Positions 8,691 through 61,602 of a stretch of 64,000 nucleotides of DNA are shown piece after piece. The position numbers and the translations under genes are program-made. The DNA comes from Sinotaia quadrata (taxonomy: Eukaryota; Mollusca; Gastropoda; Architaenioglossa; Viviparidae): the NCBI GenBank assembly GCA_028829895.1, contig CM054178.1:19361501-19425500 (forward strand), written 5' to 3'. The notes under the pieces were generated by a model. That model ran no database searches and was not told the DNA's origin. It worked only from the letters and a program-made list of their open reading frames with translations. Numbering within the stretch: position 1 is the stretch's first letter; every line of letters starts with the position of its first letter.

Positions 8691-8879
8691 ACTAATAAGG
8701 TGTCCAAAGTAAACAAATATTCACAAGAAAAATAATCACTTCCTACTCAAAAGAGGAAGGACTCTTATAGTGGATTAATATACATGTAACCTATGTACCA
8801 TGAGCTGCACATAAAATACATTTTATAGAGGGGTTCCAGAGAATACAAAATTATTGAAGATTGAGAAATCTAGTTTAGA

Positions 8880-9018
8880 GACACGAACTACTAGTAGTAA
8901 TAGTAACAGTAGTAGTAGAAATAGTAGTAGCAATAGTATTAGCAGCAGCAGCAGCAGCAGCCGTAGTAGTAGTAGTTGTAGTAGTAGTAGTAGTAGTAGT
9001 AGCAGTAGTAGTAGTAGT
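8880..9018. repeat. (AGT/AGC)n trinucleotide repeat beside lectin exon 2
   Basis: Trinucleotide array starting about 60 bp beyond the donor of exon 9081-9275. Read in the exon's frame it would encode poly-Thr/Ala, but the gtaagt donor at 9075-9080 separates it from the coding sequence. Confidence 0.9.
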
Positions 9019-9080
9019 GTTAACTTTGCAGTTACAAACGTAATCACATGTATAGTCTCCACTTTCGTTTATATACTTAC

Positions 9081-9275
9081 TTTGGTAAAGTGGGAAGATC
9101 TGTATGAACAAAACAGGATATACGCCACCTAGGTCTACCTCCCACCATTCATTGATGTTGTTTCTTGTGTGACTAAAGGTGGTAGTATCGTTGTCAACTG
9201 CCTTAGATGCAGCATAAATGTCCATGTTTCCAAACGTAGAACTTTGCATTGTCTCCTTCGCAAAGGCGATATTGA
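9081..9275 (-). CDS. Gene 1 exon 2: first half of F5/8C or F-type-lectin-like domain
   Basis: A 195-bp phase 1-1 exon with acceptor tgcaatag and donor gtaagt. It encodes NIAFAKETMQSSTFGN, then AASKAVDNDTTTF and NEWWEVDLGGVYPV. This is the standard opening of discoidin/F-type lectin domains: N-(I/L)-A-x-x-K-x-x-x-Q-S-S, A-V-D-x-(N/D), and W-W-x-V-D-L-G. Together with exon 3 it gives one complete domain of about 127 residues. It follows the signal peptide exon with a Val codon created at the splice joint. Confidence 0.92.
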
Positions 9276-9674
9276 CTATTGCAACATAAGACACATAAAT
9301 CGTTATATTAAACTTCCTTCAAGTAATGTGACATATAACATACCGAATATGTTGTCCAGTGTGTTATTAAATAACAGACGATTGATATTATGACACAAAA
9401 TCTTCACATTATCTCCATTTCACAAATGAAATTAAAGTTGAAAATAATAAACTTGTGAATACATAATGGTAGTGCTTACATTCCTTTTAATAATTACTTT
9501 CTTTAAATGCAAAATCATCCAGAACTTCAAGTATAATTAAATATAGTAAACATCTCCATCATGTTTATGAAATTTTAGATTTATCTACTTCACAAGGTGC
9601 TGAAACAAGATGCGTTTTCTCAGTTACTCACATATCAAATAGAACGAGATTCAAGTAGGTTACAAAACACTCAC

Positions 9675-16750: not shown

Positions 16751-16985
16751 TGATTGGAACAGTTAGGTGAACTGTACTTGTTTGTTTGAACTAATGAGAG
16801 TAAGCAGTTTATTTCAGTGCCTTATAAGGTAGATTAATTTAACATTAAAATATGTTACTGAACATTTCGCTAACAGAATTGAAAGTTTTCTGATCTGTAG
16901 CTAGTCGTTTATATACTGGATAAACATTCCTTAATTGTAGTAATATGTCGAATATTAAAACTACGATGTTGTAAAAACTCCTATC

Positions 16986-17349
16986 TTAACCTCTAATTAA
17001 AGCATCAGTCTCTAGCGGATTATGAAAATCTACAGGTAAAACATTATCTCATTCTAAAGAAGTACTTAAATGTAAACTACATACAATACCATGTTGTGAT
17101 ACTAAAGCTTCTCAAACAATAATCATAAAATATAATACAGCAACAAATGAAATCATTGATCCTAAGGAAGAAATAACATTTAATTTCATACAACAATCTG
17201 GGTAATCAGAGTACCGACGTGGTATACCACTTAACCCTAAAAAAGTTTGTGGGAAAAAAGTAACATTTACACCAATAAATATAATATAAAAATGAGCTTT
17301 TGTTCATCGTTCATGTAAAGTAATACCAGTTAATAAAGAAAATCAATAA
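16986..17349 (-). pseudogene. cox1: NUMT, cox1 C-terminal segment
   Basis: The minus strand encodes the C-terminal third of cytochrome c oxidase subunit [40 protein letters not shown] and SLEWDNVLP, ending in TAA at 16986-16988. Several tryptophans are TGA (for example in HERW and IVWEA), as in invertebrate mitochondria. It cannot be expressed as a nuclear gene. The segment ends at the transposon insertion at 17350 and continues in the same reading direction at 19342-19456. Confidence 0.93.
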
Positions 17350-17501
17350 CACTATGTAACAAATTTTCACTTTTGTTCTGTTCCTGGGTTGAAAGTGTGT
17401 TTTTCTAATCCGTTAGGTCTAGAACAGAAAGGAAATCACTGTTATTCCAGAAAAAACTTTGCTTCTGTGACCGGGACAATGAAATTTGGAAAATCGCGTG
17501 T

Positions 17502-17516
17502 GTTCGAGAAAATTCT
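17502..17516. promoter_or_regulatory. Distal heat-shock element (three units)
   Basis: gTTCgaGAAaaTTCt, three perfect alternating nTTCn/nGAAn units, the minimal binding site for an HSF trimer. It lies about 80 bp upstream of the large array. Confidence 0.75.
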
Positions 17517-17595
17517 CGATTTGCTTTCAATGCCGAGCTTCCTCCCTGAACTGCTAGAGTTGTCCACATGTTTCTACAATTCTCCTGAACACTCT

Positions 17596-17665
17596 AGAAC
17601 GTTCAAGAAACTTCCAGAACTTTCGAGAAACTCTCAGAACTTTCTAGAATGTTCTTGAACGTTCC
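17596..17665. promoter_or_regulatory. Heat-shock element array: 14 contiguous 5-bp units
   Basis: Seventy bases divide into 14 consecutive units that alternate nGAAn and nTTCn without a gap. Thirteen are perfect; only the eighth (17631-17635, ctctc) is off. Three units bind one heat-shock-factor trimer, so this array could hold four or more. It ends 17 bp before the TATA box and points at the transposase-like gene. This density exceeds typical hsp70 promoters. Binding and heat induction are inferred from the established HSE consensus. Confidence 0.9.
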
Positions 17666-17682
17666 AAAAGTAGCTGTACAAG

Positions 17683-17690
17683 TATAAAAG
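17683..17690 (+). promoter_or_regulatory. TATA box of the transposase-like gene
   Basis: TATAAAAG, a canonical animal TATA box. Transcription would be expected to start near 17713, just ahead of the coding region. The arrangement of HSE array, TATA box and short leader is that of heat-shock genes. Confidence 0.8.
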
Positions 17691-17736
17691 CACAGGTGTC
17701 TCAAACCAAGATTCCATGAGAAGTTATTTATTTGAT

Positions 17737-17944
17737 ATGGCATCAAGAGATTGTTTGCATCCAGCTGATTCATTCTGCTACGTGCGCGAACAATTCATAA
17801 AGACAAGAGCGAAAAAGTATTCCGTGGAAGCAAGTCATATAATGTGCGAGGCCTACAAGGCATACTTCGGCGTGCCGGTCGGGGACCAAGACAAATCTTG
17901 GGCACCGCATTTCACATGCGAATATTGCAAAAAACCACTTGAAG
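17737..17944 (+). CDS. Transposase-like protein, exon 1
   Basis: First coding exon of a two-exon gene, ending at donor GAAG|gtaaac. The in-frame ATG at 17716 would lie almost at the predicted transcription start. The ATG at 17737 (MASRDC, with G at -3 and +4) is therefore the better start, giving 378 residues overall. Near its end the exon has HFTCEYCKK, half of a likely zinc-binding CxxC...CxxC module completed by YFCMVN in exon 2. I recall homologous proteins as widespread uncharacterised, transposon-like genes in arthropods and other invertebrates. Codon use and GC are clearly unlike the AT-rich surroundings. Confidence 0.82.
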
Positions 17945-18167
17945 GTAAACTGAACAGTTGCTTCTCGCTTAGATGTGTTTTAATTTATATTCATAAAATT
18001 TCAATGCTTTAGATCGAGTTCATTTCAAAGAGTTGTAATTTACAAAGTTTTGTCATAAGTCGTGTACTGTAGGCAAATACGTTCCATCTTGAAATCATTC
18101 CATATTTTGAAATTTCCTGCCCTCAAATTATTATAATTCTTATGTATTATTATGTGCTATGTTACAG

Positions 18168-19096
18168 GTTGGTACAGAGGAGAGAAGCGAGCCATGAAGT
18201 TTGCTATCCCGCGAATTTGGCGAGAGCCGACGGACCACTCAAGCAACTGCTACTTCTGCATGGTAAACCCAAAAAATCGTCGCACCGGCAAAAATGCCCC
18301 TCAGATCGTTTATCCAGACATACCTTCTTCCATCACCCCAGTACCACACAGCCCCGATCTGCCTGTTCCGACTCCTCCTAGGCGGCATCGGCCATCTTCA
18401 GGAGACAGCAGCAAGTCAGATAGCGAGGCAGATACTGGAGATATGGACTACGATTCTGCAGATGAAGTTGGGGATAGAAAGCCATACTTCCCTAACCAGA
18501 AAGACGTGAACAATTTAATTAGGGACCTCGGGCTTATGAAATCGAATGCTGAGCTTCTGATATCCAGGCTCAAACAGTGGAACTTGGTTGATGATAGCGT
18601 ACAAGTCACGGATCAGAGGAAGTGGCATCAAAGATTCTCCAACTTCTTCAGTCAGCGTGATGGGCTGTGCTTCTGCAACGATGTTGCCAGTCTATTCCAG
18701 GCTATAGGTATCACATGTAATCCTATTGAATGGCGCCTATTCATAGACAGTTCATCCCGGAGCAGTTTCGTTGCAGTTGTTCAGGGCTTCCTAGGTAATC
18801 ACAAAGCTGAAAACTATGTGGAGTTGGTGCAGACTCTCATAAAGAATTACGCCACAATGGGATGCAGAATGTCTCTGAAAGTTCATATCCTTGATTTGCA
18901 TCTCGACAAATTCAAGGAGAACATGGGCGCTTACTCGGAGGAGCAAGGCGAGCGCTTTCATCAAGATGTATTGAACTTTGAGCGTCGTTACCAAGGACAG
19001 TATAACGAAAACATGATGGGGGACTACATTTGGGGGCTACTTCGAGAGAGTGATTCACAGTACAATCGTAAATCTAGAAAATCTACACATTTCTGA
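18168..19096 (+). CDS. Transposase-like protein, exon 2, central catalytic part missing
   Basis: Acceptor gttacag at 18167; the splice joint reads P-L-E-G-W-Y-R and keeps frame to TGA at 19094-19096. In order: the second CxxC (CYFC), a Pro/Ser/Asp-rich linker, a conserved block ending EWRLFIDSSSRS, then FLGNHKAENYVELV and the C-terminal block SEEQGERFHQD...YQGQYNENMMGDY. In full-length relatives, as I remember them, roughly 150 residues lie between the FIDSS segment and the NNKAENY-type segment, including a second conserved Asp (VDLKM). Here they are absent without breaking the frame. If FID, VDL and GERFH carry a DDE-type triad, this copy lacks one member and is catalytically dead, though it may still bind DNA. 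The triad assignment is inference. Confidence 0.82.
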
Positions 19097-19331
19097 ACCT
19101 TGTTGAGTGGTTTCCAACTGTGTTTGTCTATTCCTTATGCAAATTTTGTTTTTACCTGATCATAATGACGAAAATGAAAAAAAATCGTTCTATTTTCACA
19201 AAAAAAACGGGTTTTCTTCGTGCTGTTGTCATGTAAGCAAAGTTTGTGCTTAATGAAGTCATTTTTTCACGTACTTTAGACATAAGCAATTGAAATATAA
19301 CACTTAGAAGCCAGGAACAAAAATTGTGTTA

Positions 19332-20228
<897 letters not shown>

Positions 20229-23200
20229 CTTGTAAAATTAAAAAGTGGCAGCAACATTGGTTGCTCCTTAGAATGTACTAATTGATTCTTTCTTTTTCAG
20301 CATAGGGTACTGTAAAATGTCAAAATGAGAATAGCCCTGACTTTCACAATAATTTGTTTATAATTGTAAAAGAAATGTCTTTAAACGCTCTAAAATACTG
20401 CTTGCATGACTTTTATTCTTAGGTACAAAGTAATAGTAAGTACCATAGTTTCTGTTATCACTAGAAAGTGTGTTACAAGTACATACAACTGACTGTTAGG
20501 AAGGGGAATCGTGTGCTGCAACCTTAGGTCAGTGATTCTAACGTAACTAAGTGGAAAATTGAGGAATATAGAACCCTGATCTACTTAAGGTTTTGAGGTG
20601 TTTAGATTTGAAATCTGTTTTTGATGCCTTGATTTTGGCAACATTGTTATTGCATTGAATGTGTTTTTGGTGTTAGTGAGATCATAAATTATTCTTTTGA
20701 GGAATATTTGGTTAATTTGTGTTTTGATTTAATTTGAACTCTGCTGACGTTTACTTTCAGAGGCATTGTATAAATAATTACAAAGAAATAAATTAAATAC
20801 AGTGAAATGTTGTAAATTTACCCAAGATGAAACGTCAATCAGTATATCTTTATAAATGAGATGCAGATTTGTGCATACGTAGCAGAAGGCTATTACCGTG
20901 TGAAGAATGAAATGAACTGGACTGTGTCCTTATCAATGGGAAGATGGAAACCTTAAACCATGGGTCAAGGTGCCCTGTAGACATCCCGCAACAAAGTTGA
21001 TAACTTAATCAATAGACAAATTTGAATCACTTCTCCTAGAGACACCCTATGCTTCGGCAAGAGAAAGAGAGTCCGGAGTAAACTTAGAGCTTGTATAATT
21101 CTGTGTGAATGAATGAGTCTGAAAAAACCTTTGAGAAAAAAGAAGCAAATGATTCTGTAAGAAAATTAAGGATTAATTAATACAGCGTGTTTTTGCTTTT
21201 TGCTTTTGAAGGAATGAAAGTGTTTGGATTTTTCCATGATGCCATTATTGTTGTTGTTTACCCATTCTTTGTTTTGGTATGTTGTGATTTCTCACTTCCA
21301 GTTTACCCTGCCATCTAGTCTTTGTCTAAAGCACTTGTTGATACAAATCATATGATGTCAGCCACTCTCTGCCAAGTGTGTAGTGAGATATGATACGTCA
21401 CACTCAATGAGATTTAAAAAAAATCATTGATTGTGCATTCTATTTGTAATAAACCTTTATAAGAAACTGGTGAGTCAAAGAGAAAATCTGCAGAGAGACG
21501 ATCAACTCTCTTTGGAGAAAAATCTAATAGATAGAAAGTCTGACTTTTAGGGCAGGTTAGATCTTTCTGTGATAGCCAGATTATATATTTAAAATTATAA
21601 TTTTTTTGATCGTTTTCTGTTTTCTTTTCATAAATTCCTTAATAAGTTTCTACTCATCTTACTGTGTCATTCCTTATCGTCTTCATTTTATGTACAATTC
21701 ATCTTGTATAGCTGTCATGGAAAAGGGGAATAATCCATTGCCAAATTTATTTTTAATTCCTACGGTATTATTAATTCCCCTTGTTGGTCACAAGATGTAT
21801 TGCTATAGTTTGTGGAATAAATGCTTACATCCTTATATGCACAGTCAAGTGTGTATGAGATAAATTATTTGTATATTGTTCATGATTACTCAGGACTTTT
21901 TCAATTTATAAATTATTTCTAGTAATGTAAACATGTCTCACTAATAAAGAGATTTTCTATACTGAGCGTGTCCTCATCTGGCAGACTAAAATTACGTAGA
22001 TTGTATTTTAATTGTGAACTATTTTGCAAAATATCACAAGTGAATTCTGGTGATTTCTTAAAACAGAGCACAAAACAGACCATTCTTTGATGACCCGTCA
22101 ATGAAAAGAACCTAGAACCGAGTTTAATGTCCCTTTATAGCTTTATATTTACGGCTTAAAATATACTACTGCTTTATGGTTTGCATATCCACATTTGTAA
22201 GGGCAAAGAGGTGGTGCTATATCCCAAAGATAAAGTAATTATTTCAAATTTAGTGCATACCCTCTTCAGAAATGCATGTGCATTCACAAAGAAAATAATT
22301 CGCACAAGTTTAATGAATAGTCCTGAAAAACCCGCGAGAAGCAAAGATATCGTTTTTTAATTATCAATATAAAGCGTAATTTTCGCAATGGATTATGGTT
22401 TATATGCATATTTATTTATACTTTTGTTGCACAATAAAAACGTTAACAGAGGCAAATCTATGAAAACTCATCCGCACTGAACAAGAATGGGACTATTTCC
22501 CTTAGTAGTTCTTTCGCATGTAAGCGTGTCAGTCAAGTGAAGTAATTATGGAGTATCGGTTGGAATATCAGGCAACTAGTGTTTGAAATACAGGATGCGC
22601 AATCTCGAGTCGTTTCCTATACAGGAAGTGGTTATGTCTAAACTTCCGTTTTCTTTTATTTCAATTTGATTTAGCTTTGTACAATTAATAACAAATGAAT
22701 TCATCACGAAAATCTTAATAACTTTCTACCACTTTTTTTTATTTCGAAATTGGTATTAGCTAGTTTTGTAATTTATAATCCTACAAAGTAGAAACAATCA
22801 AACACGTGCATCTTGTGTTCACCACGTGATTAAAAAAAGCACAAAAAATATTAGACTGAATTTACCCAAGCAGCAAAGGAAGCAAAATGCACATCTACTA
22901 CAACCATTGTTTGAGAGAACATTAGTAAATGAACTAACACCCATGTCCTTGCGATGCTTTTAGAAATGACAGATGAGAACCGAGTAGAAAACAATATGTA
23001 ATAAACACATTGGCGTGCAATACGGAAATGGTCGCTTTGAAAGCAGGAAGCACAGGGTGAATGGTGTGGCTGGTTAGTCTTGATAAAGAGACAGATTTTA
23101 CACTATAATATTACTAAAGTAAATGATAAATTATTCAGCTGTTATAAAAGTAAATTGAATGAATGTGTTGTACATATTCGAATGTACATATATTAGCAAC

Positions 23201-52950: not shown

Positions 52951-53589
52951 CTGTATCATTAAAATAAAATATTATCAGATACGCTAAAACATATCTACAA
53001 AATACATCTTTATTTTTCGTTGTAGATATGAATTTCTATTTATTTAAATGTATACATCAATAATTCAATATATTTTTCTGGTTACAATTATTTTAAATCT
53101 ACACATTATATATGTGTATACGGTGCGTTTGATGAAAAGTGCTTATTTCGCATGATGTGCGTCTGTCTCACACTTAATAATGATAGATTTTCATAACTTC
53201 ACATCACAGCAGTAAGTCAGTTCATTTCATGCCTGGTACATGTCGGAATGCCGTTAAATATCATTTAGTGTCACATGTTACAGTATCATTCATATCATGG
53301 CGAAAACTTTGTACAGTATTTAACCATTCAATATCAGTGTAATATTGTGTTTCTCGTAAACAGCAAATGATTCTTGCTATGTACATCAATAAACGTATTG
53401 TTACAGAATGTTGTACTTTCATGCCAGGAACCTGCACATGATGTAGTAATGTATACTATTATATATCACACAACATTAAAAAATGCCTTGCAAAAACACA
53501 TCACATGCTCATCAATCTCATCGCGTCGTGCTTTCTCTTGTCTATATTTAATTGTCTATGTTATCGTAAACTCGTCTATCTAGCTGTCT

Positions 53590-53789
53590 ATTGCTGAAAC
53601 ATAAAATATAGAACATAACGCTGAAAGAAATAACATAAACTGTAGAACATAACGCTGAAAGAAATAACATAAACTGTAGAACATAACGCTGAAAGAAATA
53701 ACATAAACTGTAGAACATAACGCTGAAAGAAATAACATAAAATGTAGAACATAACGCTGAAAGAAATAACATAAAATGTAGAACATAAC
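53590..53789 (-). repeat. 34-bp minisatellite abutting an EGF exon donor
   Basis: Units start at 53611, 53645, 53679, 53713, 53747 and 53781, the last cut off by the exon at 53790. On the gene strand each unit contains tttctttcag, like a 3' splice site, followed by gttatg, which is also the real donor sequence of the exon. The large open frames over this array are repeat translations. Confidence 0.92.
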
Positions 53790-53924
53790 CGATGCATAAG
53801 TCTCCTTGGAAGCCTGCTGCACAACCTGCCGTGCAAAATCCGTTGTCATGTCTGCACTGCTTGATGAAGCGACAGTAGCCGCACGTCTGATTGCAACCGT
53901 CACCGTAATACCCCACGTCACATT
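53790..53924 (-). CDS. Gene 2 EGF-like exon, last before the membrane
   Basis: A 135-bp phase 1-1 exon with acceptor caccgattag and donor gttatg. It encodes CDVGYYGDGCNQTCGYC then FCTAGCAAGFQGDLC. It has the same length and cysteine plan as modules A to D. The donor gttatg is non-consensus at +3 and lies against a 34-bp tandem array. Confidence 0.88.
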
Positions 53925-54858
53925 CTAATCGGTGGACAGAATACATACGAATCCATTTTGTTAGTTTTGTATTTCAATGCTCTTTTCTTGTGTTAATTTT
54001 CTTGATTATTTATTTCTAATACCCTTGGTACATTCAGTTAAGTGTATTATAGAATTCGAACCCATGTAAAACATTACACTGAGATAGTATGAATCCCTAT
54101 TTTATGCCAAGTATTACATTCCTTTAAAGCGTTTTTATTATAGTAAGAGCAATTAATTCACATGCATCAAACGAGTCAAATAAAGAATACTAATACAAAG
54201 TCTTCAAACACACGCACGCGTACACCCATATCTCGAGAGTAACAGTTCAACCATGAGATGATCGTCATAGATATATATTTTAGTTGTTACTGATTACCTC
54301 ATATTACTTATCGTGCTTAGTCTGATTTGTTTTTCAGTACGTGGTGGCGTATTTGACACAATAAATTAATTCGAAATACTAGTACTCGAGAAAAAATGTT
54401 GTTATCGACGATGTAATTACTTTTCTTAAAATAATCGAAAGCTGTATTATTTTTCATTTAAGTAAACACAATCATGTGTGTTGTGATAAATATGTATTTC
54501 ATAGAACGAACAGTCCGCCAAGCCATCTGGTACTATTTAAAAGTCAAGCACAAACACGTGCTCAACTTCACAAAATAATGTTCATAATGGAGTTTTATTA
54601 TTGGAGAGCCTAGTTCGTACATCTTAATGTGTGTGCTTCGTGTTTATGTGAATCAAACCTATTTCTATATATTTTGCTTTAATGTTTCACAAGGCTTATA
54701 TAAAAAGATATATATTGGAGAATTGTAACTAAATGCACTATAAACGAATATAGATATGCTATTATTATAGCAGTTTTGTATTTTATTTCTATAACTTTAA
54801 CAGAATAAATCTTCATAAATTGCTACATCAAGTGAAATAATGCATTAAATTAACATAC

Positions 54859-55208: not shown

Positions 55209-55445
55209 TGTTACGTTTCCAGTATTTATTTACAGACCCTGCCTAGGATAATTAAGGACTTTAAAGATAATAGATAAATTAATTCCTTCTCTCTTATCCT
55301 ATACAGACTGGTTGCTCAACTTATCATTTGACTAATTTAAAAATGTGTCTTGTAGTACAGACGACAGATTTACAAACTGATAAATTGCGTACGTTAGTTG
55401 GGTTGGAGTCGTTAAATTCCTCTAAATTAATATGCATTCGTTATG
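55209..55445 (+). repeat. 5' fragment of the solo-LTR family
   Basis: Matches 38990-39230 from TGTTACGTTTCCAG onward, roughly 85 percent by eye. It breaks off where the LINE begins at about 55445. The remainder of the LTR was not found beyond the LINE. Confidence 0.85.
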
Positions 55446-57613
55446 TGAACAACTGCAAGACATACTAAACAAACCAGGAACCCTACCAGCATGGATGGTA
55501 AAAGGAAAAACAAGTCTGATTATGAAAGATCCACAGAAAGGCACAACACCAAACAACTATCGTCCAATCACTTGCCTATCAACCACCTGGAAGTTACTAT
55601 CAGGAATTATAGCTGACAAAATCATGACTCACCTTGAAACAAACAAACTTCTAAACAATGAACAAAAGGATGCTAGACCAGGCAGCAGAGGAACAAAGGA
55701 CCAATTGGCAATTGATAAGGCAATAGTGACTGACAGCAAGAAACGAAGAACAAATCTTGCAATGGCATGGATTGATTATCAAAAGGCCTATGACTCAGTC
55801 CCACATTCATGGATAATTGAAACATTAAAATTGTACAAAGTAGCGCCATCAATACAGAATCTAATTCAGGAGTCAATGAAAAACTGGAAAACCACCCTCA
55901 CATGCAACAACACAAATATTGCAGACATAGCAATAAATTGTGGAATCTTCCAAGGTGATTCCTTATCGCCACTGCTGTTCTGTATTGCCCTGAATCCTCT
56001 CAGTCAAGTGATCCAGAAAACAGGGTTAGGATACAAAATGAAAGCAGGACAGGTCATCAGCCATCTACTGTACATGGACGATCTCAAGCTGTACGGAAAA
56101 AATGAACGTGACATCATATCCCTGATCAATTCTGTCAAGATGTGCAGTGAGGACATCAACATGAAATTCGGCCTTGAGAAATGTGGACGAATTATCATCC
56201 AGAAAGGCAAGGTCAAAACAACAGAGGGCCTGCAATTCGACATCGGAAAAATCAACGATGTTTCAATGGAAAATGGATATAAGTATCTTGGGATATTACA
56301 ACATCAAGAAAATATGCAGAGAGAAGTGAAGTCCAAAGTTAAGAGAGAATATGAAAAACGTGTTAGACAAGTCCTGAAGTCCAAGCTAAATGGGGCAAAC
56401 AAAATACAAGCCCTTAATGCATACGCAATACCTGTAGTAAGCTACACTGGAGGTATCATAGATTGGACAGCAAATGAAATAAATGAACTGGACAGGAAAA
56501 CAAGAAAACTACTCACAATACACAAAGCCTTACACCCCAAAGCAGACGTAGACAGCTCTATGTATCTCGAAAAATGAGAGGCTGAGGTCTGAAGAAAATC
56601 AAACATGTCATTGAAGCAGAAGTCATTGGCCTTGTGGACTACATCTGGAATAACAACAAAGATGATCCACGGATAGAAGCAGTAAAAATGAGTGGACTAT
56701 TCCAACTCCCAGAAACAAACAAAGAAACATGGAAGAAAACAACGAAGCAAGAACTAGCACATACATGGAGCCAGAAACCTCTGCATGGCCAGTATGTACG
56801 ACAAGCCGACGAAATATCAACAAAGCAATCAACGTACAAATGGTTGAAAGAGGCAGGATTGAAAGCAGAAACAGAAGCACTCATAACAGCTGCACACGAT
56901 CAAGCACTCAACACCAAAGCACACAAAGCGAAAATCATGAAAATTTCAAATGATTCCAAATGTCGACTCTGCAAATCCATGGATGAGACAACAGAGCACA
57001 TACTATCTGGATGTCAGGTTCTGGCTGGAACGGAATACACCAAACGACACAATGAAGTGGCAAAACATATACATAGAAATCTGTGTGAGAAATATGGCAT
57101 AAAAACCCCAGAAAGAGCATGGATGCATCAAACAGAAGCAGTCACCGAAACAGAAGAAGACAAAATACTGTGGGACTTCGAGATAAGAACAGATTGGGTG
57201 ATTCCTGCACGAAGACCAGACATTGTAGTTCTCAATAAGGCTAACAGAACAGTATCAATCATTGATGTCGCTGTTCCAAGTGATAGAAACATAAAAACAA
57301 AAGAAAGAGAAAAAATAGAAAAATACCAAGACCTCAGATTAGAAATCCAGAGACTGTGGAATGTAAAAGCAGAAGTGATACCTATAGTGATAGGAGCCTT
57401 GGGGAACATAACATCTGAATTGGAAGGCTACCTGAATAAACTTCCTGGAAATCACAGAATCGCTCCACTACTCAAAGCAGCGCTCCCCGGAAGTGCCCAC
57501 ATCCTCCGTAAAACTTTGGATCTCCCAGAATCTTGGTAAGATTCCGAGACCTTGGATCACAACCGACAGTCAAACAGAAGTCGTGGAAAGAGGCTGAATA
57601 ATAATAATAACCA
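55446..57613 (+). mobile_element. 5'-truncated R2/R4-type LINE with restriction-like endonuclease
   Basis: Reverse transcriptase frame to 56577: NNYRPITCLSTTWKLLSG, MAWIDYQKAYDSVPHSW, GIFQGDSLSPLLF and the active-site LLYMDDLKLY. A one-base frameshift and a TGA near 56574-56592 separate it from a second open frame (56634-57539). That frame has a CCHC motif (CRLC...HILSGC) and a restriction-like endonuclease core (RPDIVV...IIDVAVP). The tail is aataataataataa at 57598-57613. The domain order and the RPD...D motif identify the restriction-like-endonuclease class of non-LTR elements (R2, R4, NeSL, Hero). The missing 5' end and the frame breaks make it inactive. No clear target duplication. Confidence 0.9.
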
Positions 57614-60420: not shown

Positions 60421-61602
60421 ATAGGTAGATAGATAGATAGATAGATAGATAGAAGGAGAGAGGGGGAGGGACGTATGTCTCTTACTTTTCTACCAACATC
60501 TGTAGCAATCCCGATCTAAGGTGATTACCTAGAACTTGGATCTTCGGTTTCGACATATAAGTGGACCTAATGTCCCCCACCCCACCCCCTAAAACAAAAC
60601 TCCAGGAAGAGTTTGGTTTTTTTAATACGAAAATGAACCCTCTTTTCTATTTTATTCCTGTCTTTCTTCCTTTTTCAATAAATTAAGTATAGGTTAGTAA
60701 TTTCTTAAGAGATTAGAACTAAGAATTAATAAATACCCTTTCCGTCGATGAATTATGCCGAAGCTATTTGTCTTTGGGACTTTTTTTTTGTAAAGCATGT
60801 ATATGATGAGTTGGTCATTCTTTTGTTAAATGTTTGTTCAGTGTAGTGGATAAAGTTAAATAAATGCATAGACGGTAATCTTGTAAATAATTTCAGAATT
60901 GACATCTCGTTAATCTTGCTTTAAATGAAATGTTGTGTTCATGTTCCTTTAGATTGGTCTTGTCTGATGTTTTAGATGTAGCTATTGTGACGTAATAATG
61001 GTGTGTTCATTTAAATTGATATAGTTTTAGATATAGCTATTATGACGAAGTAATGTGTTCATTTAGATTGGTCTTGACTGAGGTTTTAGATATAGCTATT
61101 GTGACATAGTAATGTTGTAAAAGAATGCGCTCAACTGACACAAACGCATACGTGGTACCGGCATTGACAGAATAATTTTCATAATAACACATTATTATAT
61201 TATATTATTATATATGACAAAAAGTCCTTCTAAGGGTAAGTTATTCATCTAGTTTGAATTGATACAGAAAATAGTAATGAGTAACTTAAAGAGGGATTTT
61301 ATTTGAAAACTGAAGACTTGCAATGTAACAACATAATCTAAAAGAATGGTAATTTCATTACAAAGTTTGTCCTTGTGGTTGTTTCATTTATAAACTATTT
61401 TAAAATATCAACGTCATTTTCCGTTTCAAGTGTTATTAGAATTTGTATATTAATTATTTATATAATCGAATTATATATAAAGTAAACGGAAGAGGGGTCC
61501 AATTCAGAATTGGGTCAGCAGGTGGAACAGTTACTATTTTGCAAAATGTTAAATTGTGGCAAAATTGTGGACAAAACTCGTTGCTATTGGTGGTATGCTT
61601 AC

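Follow-up and report, generated by a model that had tools for sequence, protein, structure and literature searches.

A candidate heat-shock promoter shared by copies of a recently spread Chapaev3-like DNA transposon in Sinotaia quadrata

RESULTS

A transposon inserted in a nuclear COI copy

The window, by which we mean the whole 64-kb stretch of the Sinotaia quadrata genome that was analyzed, contains a DNA transposon that carries a transposase gene and, upstream of this gene, a dense array of heat-shock elements (HSEs) followed by a TATA box (Table 1). An imperfect inverted repeat spans about 110 bp at the element ends. The transposon landed in a rearranged nuclear copy of mitochondrial COI (16960–20300), whose pieces lie in both orientations and are largely readable with the invertebrate mitochondrial code. 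When the element and one TAA are omitted, the COI frame is continuous across the site and reads ...GAFNYWFSLLTG... (translation table 5).

Other features of the window include two long open frames at 55426–57539, the second in another frame, that by eye resemble a non-LTR reverse transcriptase. A nearly identical 59-bp tandem repeat of three units is located near both window ends (905–1078 and 60942–61115). Frames on the minus strand at 8875–9318 and 53548–53973 resemble, again by eye, discoidin (F5/8 type C) and EGF-like domains, and possibly belong to host receptor-like genes.

Table 1. Positions of the transposon, its parts and its insertion site in the window
Feature	Position	Strand	Basis
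Chapaev3-like DNA transposon, internal-deletion derivative, 1989 bp	17350–19338	+	Inverted ends CACTATGTAACA / TGTTACATAGTG, flanking duplication, transposase homology
Target-site duplication TAA, left copy, A before	17347–17349	.	Removing element and one TAA gives in-frame COI
Target-site duplication TAA, right copy, T after	19339–19341	.	End/flank comparison
5′ terminal inverted repeat with imperfect subterminal extension	17350–17463	+	Local alignment of both ends
3′ terminal inverted repeat with imperfect subterminal extension	19235–19338	-	Local alignment of both ends
Distal three-unit HSE, GTTCG AGAAA ATTCT	17502–17516	+	Three perfect units in 9/9 aligned promoter rows
HSE array, 16 phased 5-bp units, 14 perfect	17586–17665	+	Unit listing, shuffles, genome-wide pattern counts, copy alignments
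TATA box TATAAAAG, 17 bp past array	17683–17690	+	Sequence; TATAAAAG in 54/58 promoter rows
43-bp 5′-leader deletion junction, approximate	17715–17716	+	Absent from 8 other aligned rows; in L009, L016, L044, L045, L058
Transposase exon 1 from conserved Met (MASR)	17737–17944	+	Copy/protein comparison; one zinc-knuckle Cys to Arg
Intron, GT...AG	17945–18167	+	Splicing restores family sequence LEGWYRGEKR
Exon 2, open but without 184 residues of catalytic middle	18168–19096	+	314 versus 498 residues from same Met as P0003
Internal-deletion junction, approximate	18762–18763	+	Core-bearing copies about 546 bp longer here
Nuclear mitochondrial COI copy, left of insertion, outer limit approximate	16960–17346	-	Table 5 translation of joined flanks
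Nuclear mitochondrial COI copy, right of insertion, outer limit approximate	19342–19460	-	Joined-flank reading

The element is Chapaev3-like

The first-pass annotation described the element as CACTA-ended. Although its ends do read CACTA(TG), an assignment to CACTA/EnSpm was rejected because the transposase does not match the Tnp2 type and the duplication is a 3-bp TWA. Pfam searches with the window protein and with P0002, P0003 and P0006 gave nothing over the cut-off and no Tnp2 (PF02992); the best match was zf-AD in P0002, at 18 bits versus a cut-off of 28. Searches of the PDB with the deleted protein of the window found no significant match, and a protein search with the frame spanning the promoter found no match.

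Chapaev3 elements are described by Zhang et al. (2014; PMC4079192) as having CAC ends and a TWA duplication that lies between A and T. Of 20 copies taken from the genome, 18 have inverted ends reading CACTATG...CATAGTG, as does the window copy. The duplication is TAA or TTA in 18 of 19 elements and ATA in one (L010), with A before it and T after it in all 19. Garfield is described in the same source as having two exons, 556 amino acids and the motifs C(2)C, LH and H(4)H. Here, an intron divides the gene into two exons and the full-length relatives are 553–563 amino acids long. They have in common D263, D317, C336/C339, L384-H385, H493/H498 and the Glu of SEEQGERFH (A1 alignment columns), and thus carry a DDE transposase with all three motifs, which are partly deleted in the window copy. 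The motif names are those of PMC4079192, and their placement on the alignment columns is ours. Judged by its CAC ends, by the TAA duplication between A and T and by its two exons, the element belongs with Chapaev3 (CMC supergroup) and is Chapaev3-like rather than CACTA/EnSpm.

Protein searches returned 1047 related proteins at E ≤ 0.001. Named relatives among the matches listed (120 of 1047) come from fishes, lamprey, sturgeon, frogs, insects and crustaceans; the closest of those listed are from fish and mantis shrimp, followed by sturgeon and lamprey. No DNA of these relatives was found in scans of viral_contigs, genome_contigs and phages.

The window copy encodes a deleted transposase

A transposase-like gene had been reported directly after the array. 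The gene is present, but its catalytic middle is deleted and the ATG at 17716 is not the conserved start codon. The latter is at 17737, whereas the upstream ATG falls on the junction of the 43-bp leader deletion, which is common to all five other window-type copies looked at. About 550 bp of the catalytic core is gone, downstream of the first catalytic Asp and upstream of the segment that leads up to H(4)H. This removes 184 residues, among them the second Asp and the C(2)C and LH motifs. The Arg that replaces a zinc-knuckle Cys is found in none of 18 other aligned copies (L027 is frameshifted there). By its sequence, the window copy is a non-autonomous derivative that encodes a gutted protein.

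The array resembles a heat-shock promoter

The first-pass annotation listed 14 contiguous 5-bp HSF units at 17596–17665, 13 of them perfect, with a distal three-unit site at 17502–17516 and TATAAAAG at 17683, all inside the terminal repeats. Each of these observations was reproduced, and the array lies between the inverted ends. The units of the core tract alternate between nGAAn and nTTCn (AGAAC GTTCA AGAAA CTTCC AGAAC TTTCG AGAAA CTCTC AGAAC TTTCT AGAAT GTTCT TGAAC GTTCC), and the sole imperfect unit is that at 17631–17635. An extra perfect unit (17586–17590) precedes the tract, with one imperfect unit between them. The window copy thus has at least three phased nGAAn units near a TATA box, and array and TATA box stand in hsp-promoter order.

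The 64-kb window was shuffled 60 times with a first-order Markov model. Allowing one miss, none of the shuffled sequences had a run of more than four good units, and perfect runs of five or more units were absent. The window itself has six perfect runs of at least three units, of which two are the array split by its miss and one is the distal triple. A unit scan of the window found no run of at least three units near the 3′ end of the element, and the array is therefore confined to the 5′ side. TRF reports a 20-bp period with 85% matches over 17596–17649. When the array is divided into seven 10-bp repeats, differences are present at 12 of 28 non-core but only 2 of 42 core positions (Fisher p = 0.00014), a result that is suggestive only, since the register had been selected on the core itself, which makes the test in part circular.

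Steroid-receptor and STAT palindromes have a 3-bp spacer between their halves. Both were rejected as the identity of the tract, whose units abut at 5 bp without such a spacer.

The family is large and young

The assembly that includes the window (984,265,383 bp, 26 contigs) was searched for further copies, and the family size is estimated to be about 350. The promoter piece gave 377 first-look candidates, and all 40 that were scored match over 279–281 of 281 bases at 98–100%. Perfect seven-unit arrays match 371 times (178 + 193) versus three times (1 + 2) for the reversed pattern; these matches exceed the number of loci, since some loci hold several (the 100 listed represent 88 loci). A coding 30-mer from the 3′ part is found 366 times and a 31-mer from the 5′ end 348 times, each with at most three mismatches, and both reversed controls gave zero. 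Perfect five-unit runs number 1821 versus nine for the reversed pattern; among 100 listed, 90 are in the element's array and 10 are elsewhere.

Nineteen copies of the window type, that of the window included, differ pairwise by 0.05–2.7% (mean 1.8%), and the spread was therefore recent. The 378-amino-acid frame is open in eight of them. A rough omega of 0.69 (38 synonymous, 81 nonsynonymous and three stop variants in the 19 copies) indicates no strong coding constraint. From 2388 first-look candidates, 86 matches were scored, and three of them cover exon 2 (P0003 1–498) without a stop.

Structural types were examined in 30 copies on C1 that were picked by a mismatch-free coding 30-mer, with the array disregarded. 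Core sequence is present in 25 of these, three are of the window type without the catalytic core (L044, L045 and L058), and two end before the core (L039 and L055). Among the copies holding the core, about 13 lack roughly element positions 426–1037 and three lack 636–1233; L041, L043 and L062 have deletion limits of their own. Five copies are of the full-length type, and all of them are broken by shifts or stops.

Nearly all copies examined carry the array

Whether other copies have the array was the check proposed in the first-pass annotation, and three samples answer it in the affirmative. The first consists of 20 copies picked by promoter likeness, and hence is biased; both ends are present in 18 of them, with lengths of 1977–1994 bp, and 19 copies have 13 of 14 units, whereas L012 has eight of nine. 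In the 30 copies picked by coding sequence, the array is within reach and present in 22. It was found in separate stretches for four more, namely L036 (in L034), L065 (in L029), L046 (in L067) and L053 (in L096), of which the L053 element is interrupted by some 1.6 kb of foreign DNA. The sequence read for L039, L048, L055 and L064 lacks the 5′ part. The array is thus present in all 26 copies whose 5′ part was read (26/30 overall), and no internal deletion takes out the array or the TATA region in any of these. The third sample comprises 75 perfect 5′ ends on C1 and C2. A perfect seven-unit array lies at most 420 bp away in 70 of them, four of the remaining five have an array with mutated units, and L077 is a bare end, for a total of 74/75.

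Array and TATA box are therefore near-universal in the copies examined. Because 5′ ends, arrays and coding parts occur in similar numbers across the genome, a large array-less derivative family sharing the 5′ end is not to be expected.

Among 58 promoter rows, in which some copies are represented twice, the best phased run comprises 13 of 14 units in 43 when up to one miss is allowed; the extremes are 6 of 7 (L074 and L078) and 17 of 18 (L031). In aligned copies, unit number shifts mostly by whole 10- or 20-bp steps and phase is kept. Phase is lost in L012, and other copies have been shortened through substitutions. Four of the 58 rows have TATA variants: TATAAAAA (L030), CATAAAAA (L031), TATACAAG (L059) and ATTAAAAG (L074). 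Substitutions among the aligned young promoters affect both classes of position; counted by eye, four of 28 non-core positions vary, as do two of 39 core positions in perfect units. Since the copies are young, the arrays they share are weak evidence of selection.

Host hsp70 genes and other HSE sites

Five uninterrupted host hsp70 genes were found. HSEs were counted as strict three-unit sites over the 500 bp that precede the matched coding sequence; 123 background windows of 500 bp from the 64-kb window have a mean of 0.24 such sites and up to four. The hsp70 genes have one or two sites scoring 8/9 and none scoring 9/9, versus 14 sites of at least 8/9 in the element, ten of them 9/9, but this count probably misses looser true host sites and overstates the contrast, because the hsp70 promoters barely exceed the background windows. 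A 9/9 triple lies about 550 bp upstream of one hsp70 gene. Capture of a host hsp70 promoter by the transposon was rejected, as no like array lies within 1500 bp upstream of the five genes. The array may have been captured from a gene other than hsp70.

Two further observations were made. Three uninterrupted hsp70 genes are clustered at C6:82259717–82273088, with few strict HSEs upstream. Separately, a second dispersed repeat carries the perfect five-unit HSE GAATGTTCAAGAAACTTCnTGAA (L091–L095; C1 near 34515020, 56389067, 58070481, 24585205 and 47131411). Its five copies are more diverged, with about 70–77% identity over long matches, and have no long match to the Chapaev3-like element.

DISCUSSION

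A probable heat-shock promoter

The sequence and the copy samples support the earlier proposal of a heat-shock-type promoter within the terminal repeats of an animal DNA transposon. We consider it probable that the array serves as the heat-shock promoter of a recently spread Chapaev3-like cut-and-paste family. From these sequences we infer HSF binding, heat induction, mobilization by heat and effects on neighbors. Since nearly every copy examined has the array, heat probably switches the family on, and its arrays may reach neighboring genes.

The following mechanism is proposed. Trimers of the host HSF1 would bind the long phased array and bring Pol II to the TATA box, which lies 17 bp past the array. 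The transposase gene would then be transcribed mainly under heat or protein stress. Catalytically complete copies would supply the transposase, which would mobilize these copies and, through the shared ends, would also move the many internally deleted derivatives, of which the window copy is an example. Every insertion would deliver a strong HSE array able to act in both directions on neighboring genes.

Several other explanations were weighed. The promoter might once have been functional and now be hitch-hiking in a family that is silenced by the host and no longer heat-responsive. In its favor, the 378-amino-acid frame is open in 8 of 19 window-type copies, the rough omega is 0.69, and the five full-length-type copies are broken. 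However, the copies are very young by their pairwise differences, and stop-free exon 2 sequences persist in 3 of 86 scored matches. We regard this explanation as unlikely, although it is the best of the alternatives.

A different argument starts from the derivatives. Because these do not require a promoter of their own, its presence in them needs another reason. Since derivatives can borrow transposase, the lack of any deletion of the array or TATA region suggests either a second, cis role for the region or merely youth. The array could even be solely a subterminal cis-element for transposition, composed of palindromic transposase-binding repeats whose loss would stop movement, in which case its likeness to HSEs would be a by-product. 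The location of the array just inside the 5′ inverted repeat and its retention in 26 of 26 copies fit this proposal. Against it, the array is present only on the 5′ side, and its best phased run ranges from 7 to 18 units among copies. Moreover, alternating GAA/TTC cores phased at 5 bp, with the remaining positions free to vary, are the signature of HSF, and a TATA box then stands at the distance seen in hsp promoters. A purely cis-acting array therefore seems distinctly improbable to us.

Finally, tandem duplication did shape the tract, as is evident from its 10- and 20-bp steps and its TRF period, but an incidental short tandem repeat is very hard to credit because a 10- or 20-bp period need not contain inverted GAA/TTC cores at 5-bp spacing, the differences between repeats are mostly outside the cores, and the TATA box and distal triple make the promoter complete.

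The heat-shock promoter reading also has a bolder extension. Some 350 arrays, each with room for several HSF trimers, outnumber the hsp70 sites and by strict consensus outmatch them, and for this reason the transposon could be the main HSF target. The family would then be a heat-gated invader that titrates HSF, renders neighbors heat-inducible, and so rewires and partly saturates the host heat-shock system. Derivatives would keep the array since chromatin opened by HSF admits transposase. We offer this scenario as speculation that is quite unlikely to hold in full.

Comparison with known heat-responsive transposons

ONSEN is a heat-active copia LTR retrotransposon of Arabidopsis that confers a heat response on genes near its new insertions. 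The present element differs from this plant retrotransposon in being an animal DNA transposon. A closer precedent is provided by the Helitrons of Caenorhabditis, for which HSF-1 binding and heat induction have been demonstrated (Garrigues et al. 2019; PMC6927752) and which are cited in a sea anemone study (PMC13104882). According to PMC6927752, Helitrons contain almost two-thirds of the HSEs of C. elegans, and the autonomous Helitron1_CE copy F33H12.6 has 14 HSEs in its promoter region. Both systems are DNA transposons with many HSEs. Unlike the rolling-circle, Rep-helicase Helitrons, the element described here is a cut-and-paste DDE element from another animal and has one compact phased array.

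In Cryptococcus, putative HSEs are reported in the LTRs of TCN3 and TCN12 (PMC12810828). CNEST, from the same fungus, belongs to the CMC supergroup, as does Chapaev3, but the HSEs that this source reports are in retrotransposon LTRs and not in a CMC element. The accessible text of PMC12810828 and of PMC7922186 makes no mention of an HSE in a Chapaev element. The first-pass annotation knew of no description of such a dense HSE array in an animal CACTA-ended element. For Chapaev elements we know of none within the open-access literature consulted, where Caenorhabditis Helitrons and fungal LTRs come nearest.

With Merrow, Garfield and Conan (PMC4079192), the family has in common CAC ends, TWA between A and T, and internal-deletion derivatives. 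Merrow and Garfield, by their published description, also share two exons and a DDE transposase of about 556 amino acids. The Chapaev3 hosts of that study include lamprey and sturgeon, as do those of the relatives found here. Garfield_BM is 2,289 bp long, versus about 2.55 kb for a full-length-type copy of the present family (L029). The words "heat" and "promoter" do not occur in the main text of PMC4079192, whereas the present family has an HSE array.

Use of HSF by transposons was already known; the novelty lies in an hsp-like promoter that is widely shared within a recently amplified family of Chapaev3 type. A single assembled genome contains this promoter, numerous young copies, some copies whose exon 2 is unbroken and a landing in a recognizable mitochondrial insert, and thus stress-activated transposition and HSE dispersal are directly testable. 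If our interpretation is correct, heat-driven transposons are no longer limited to LTR elements and Helitrons but include a cut-and-paste superfamily of animals that is known for jumping between species.
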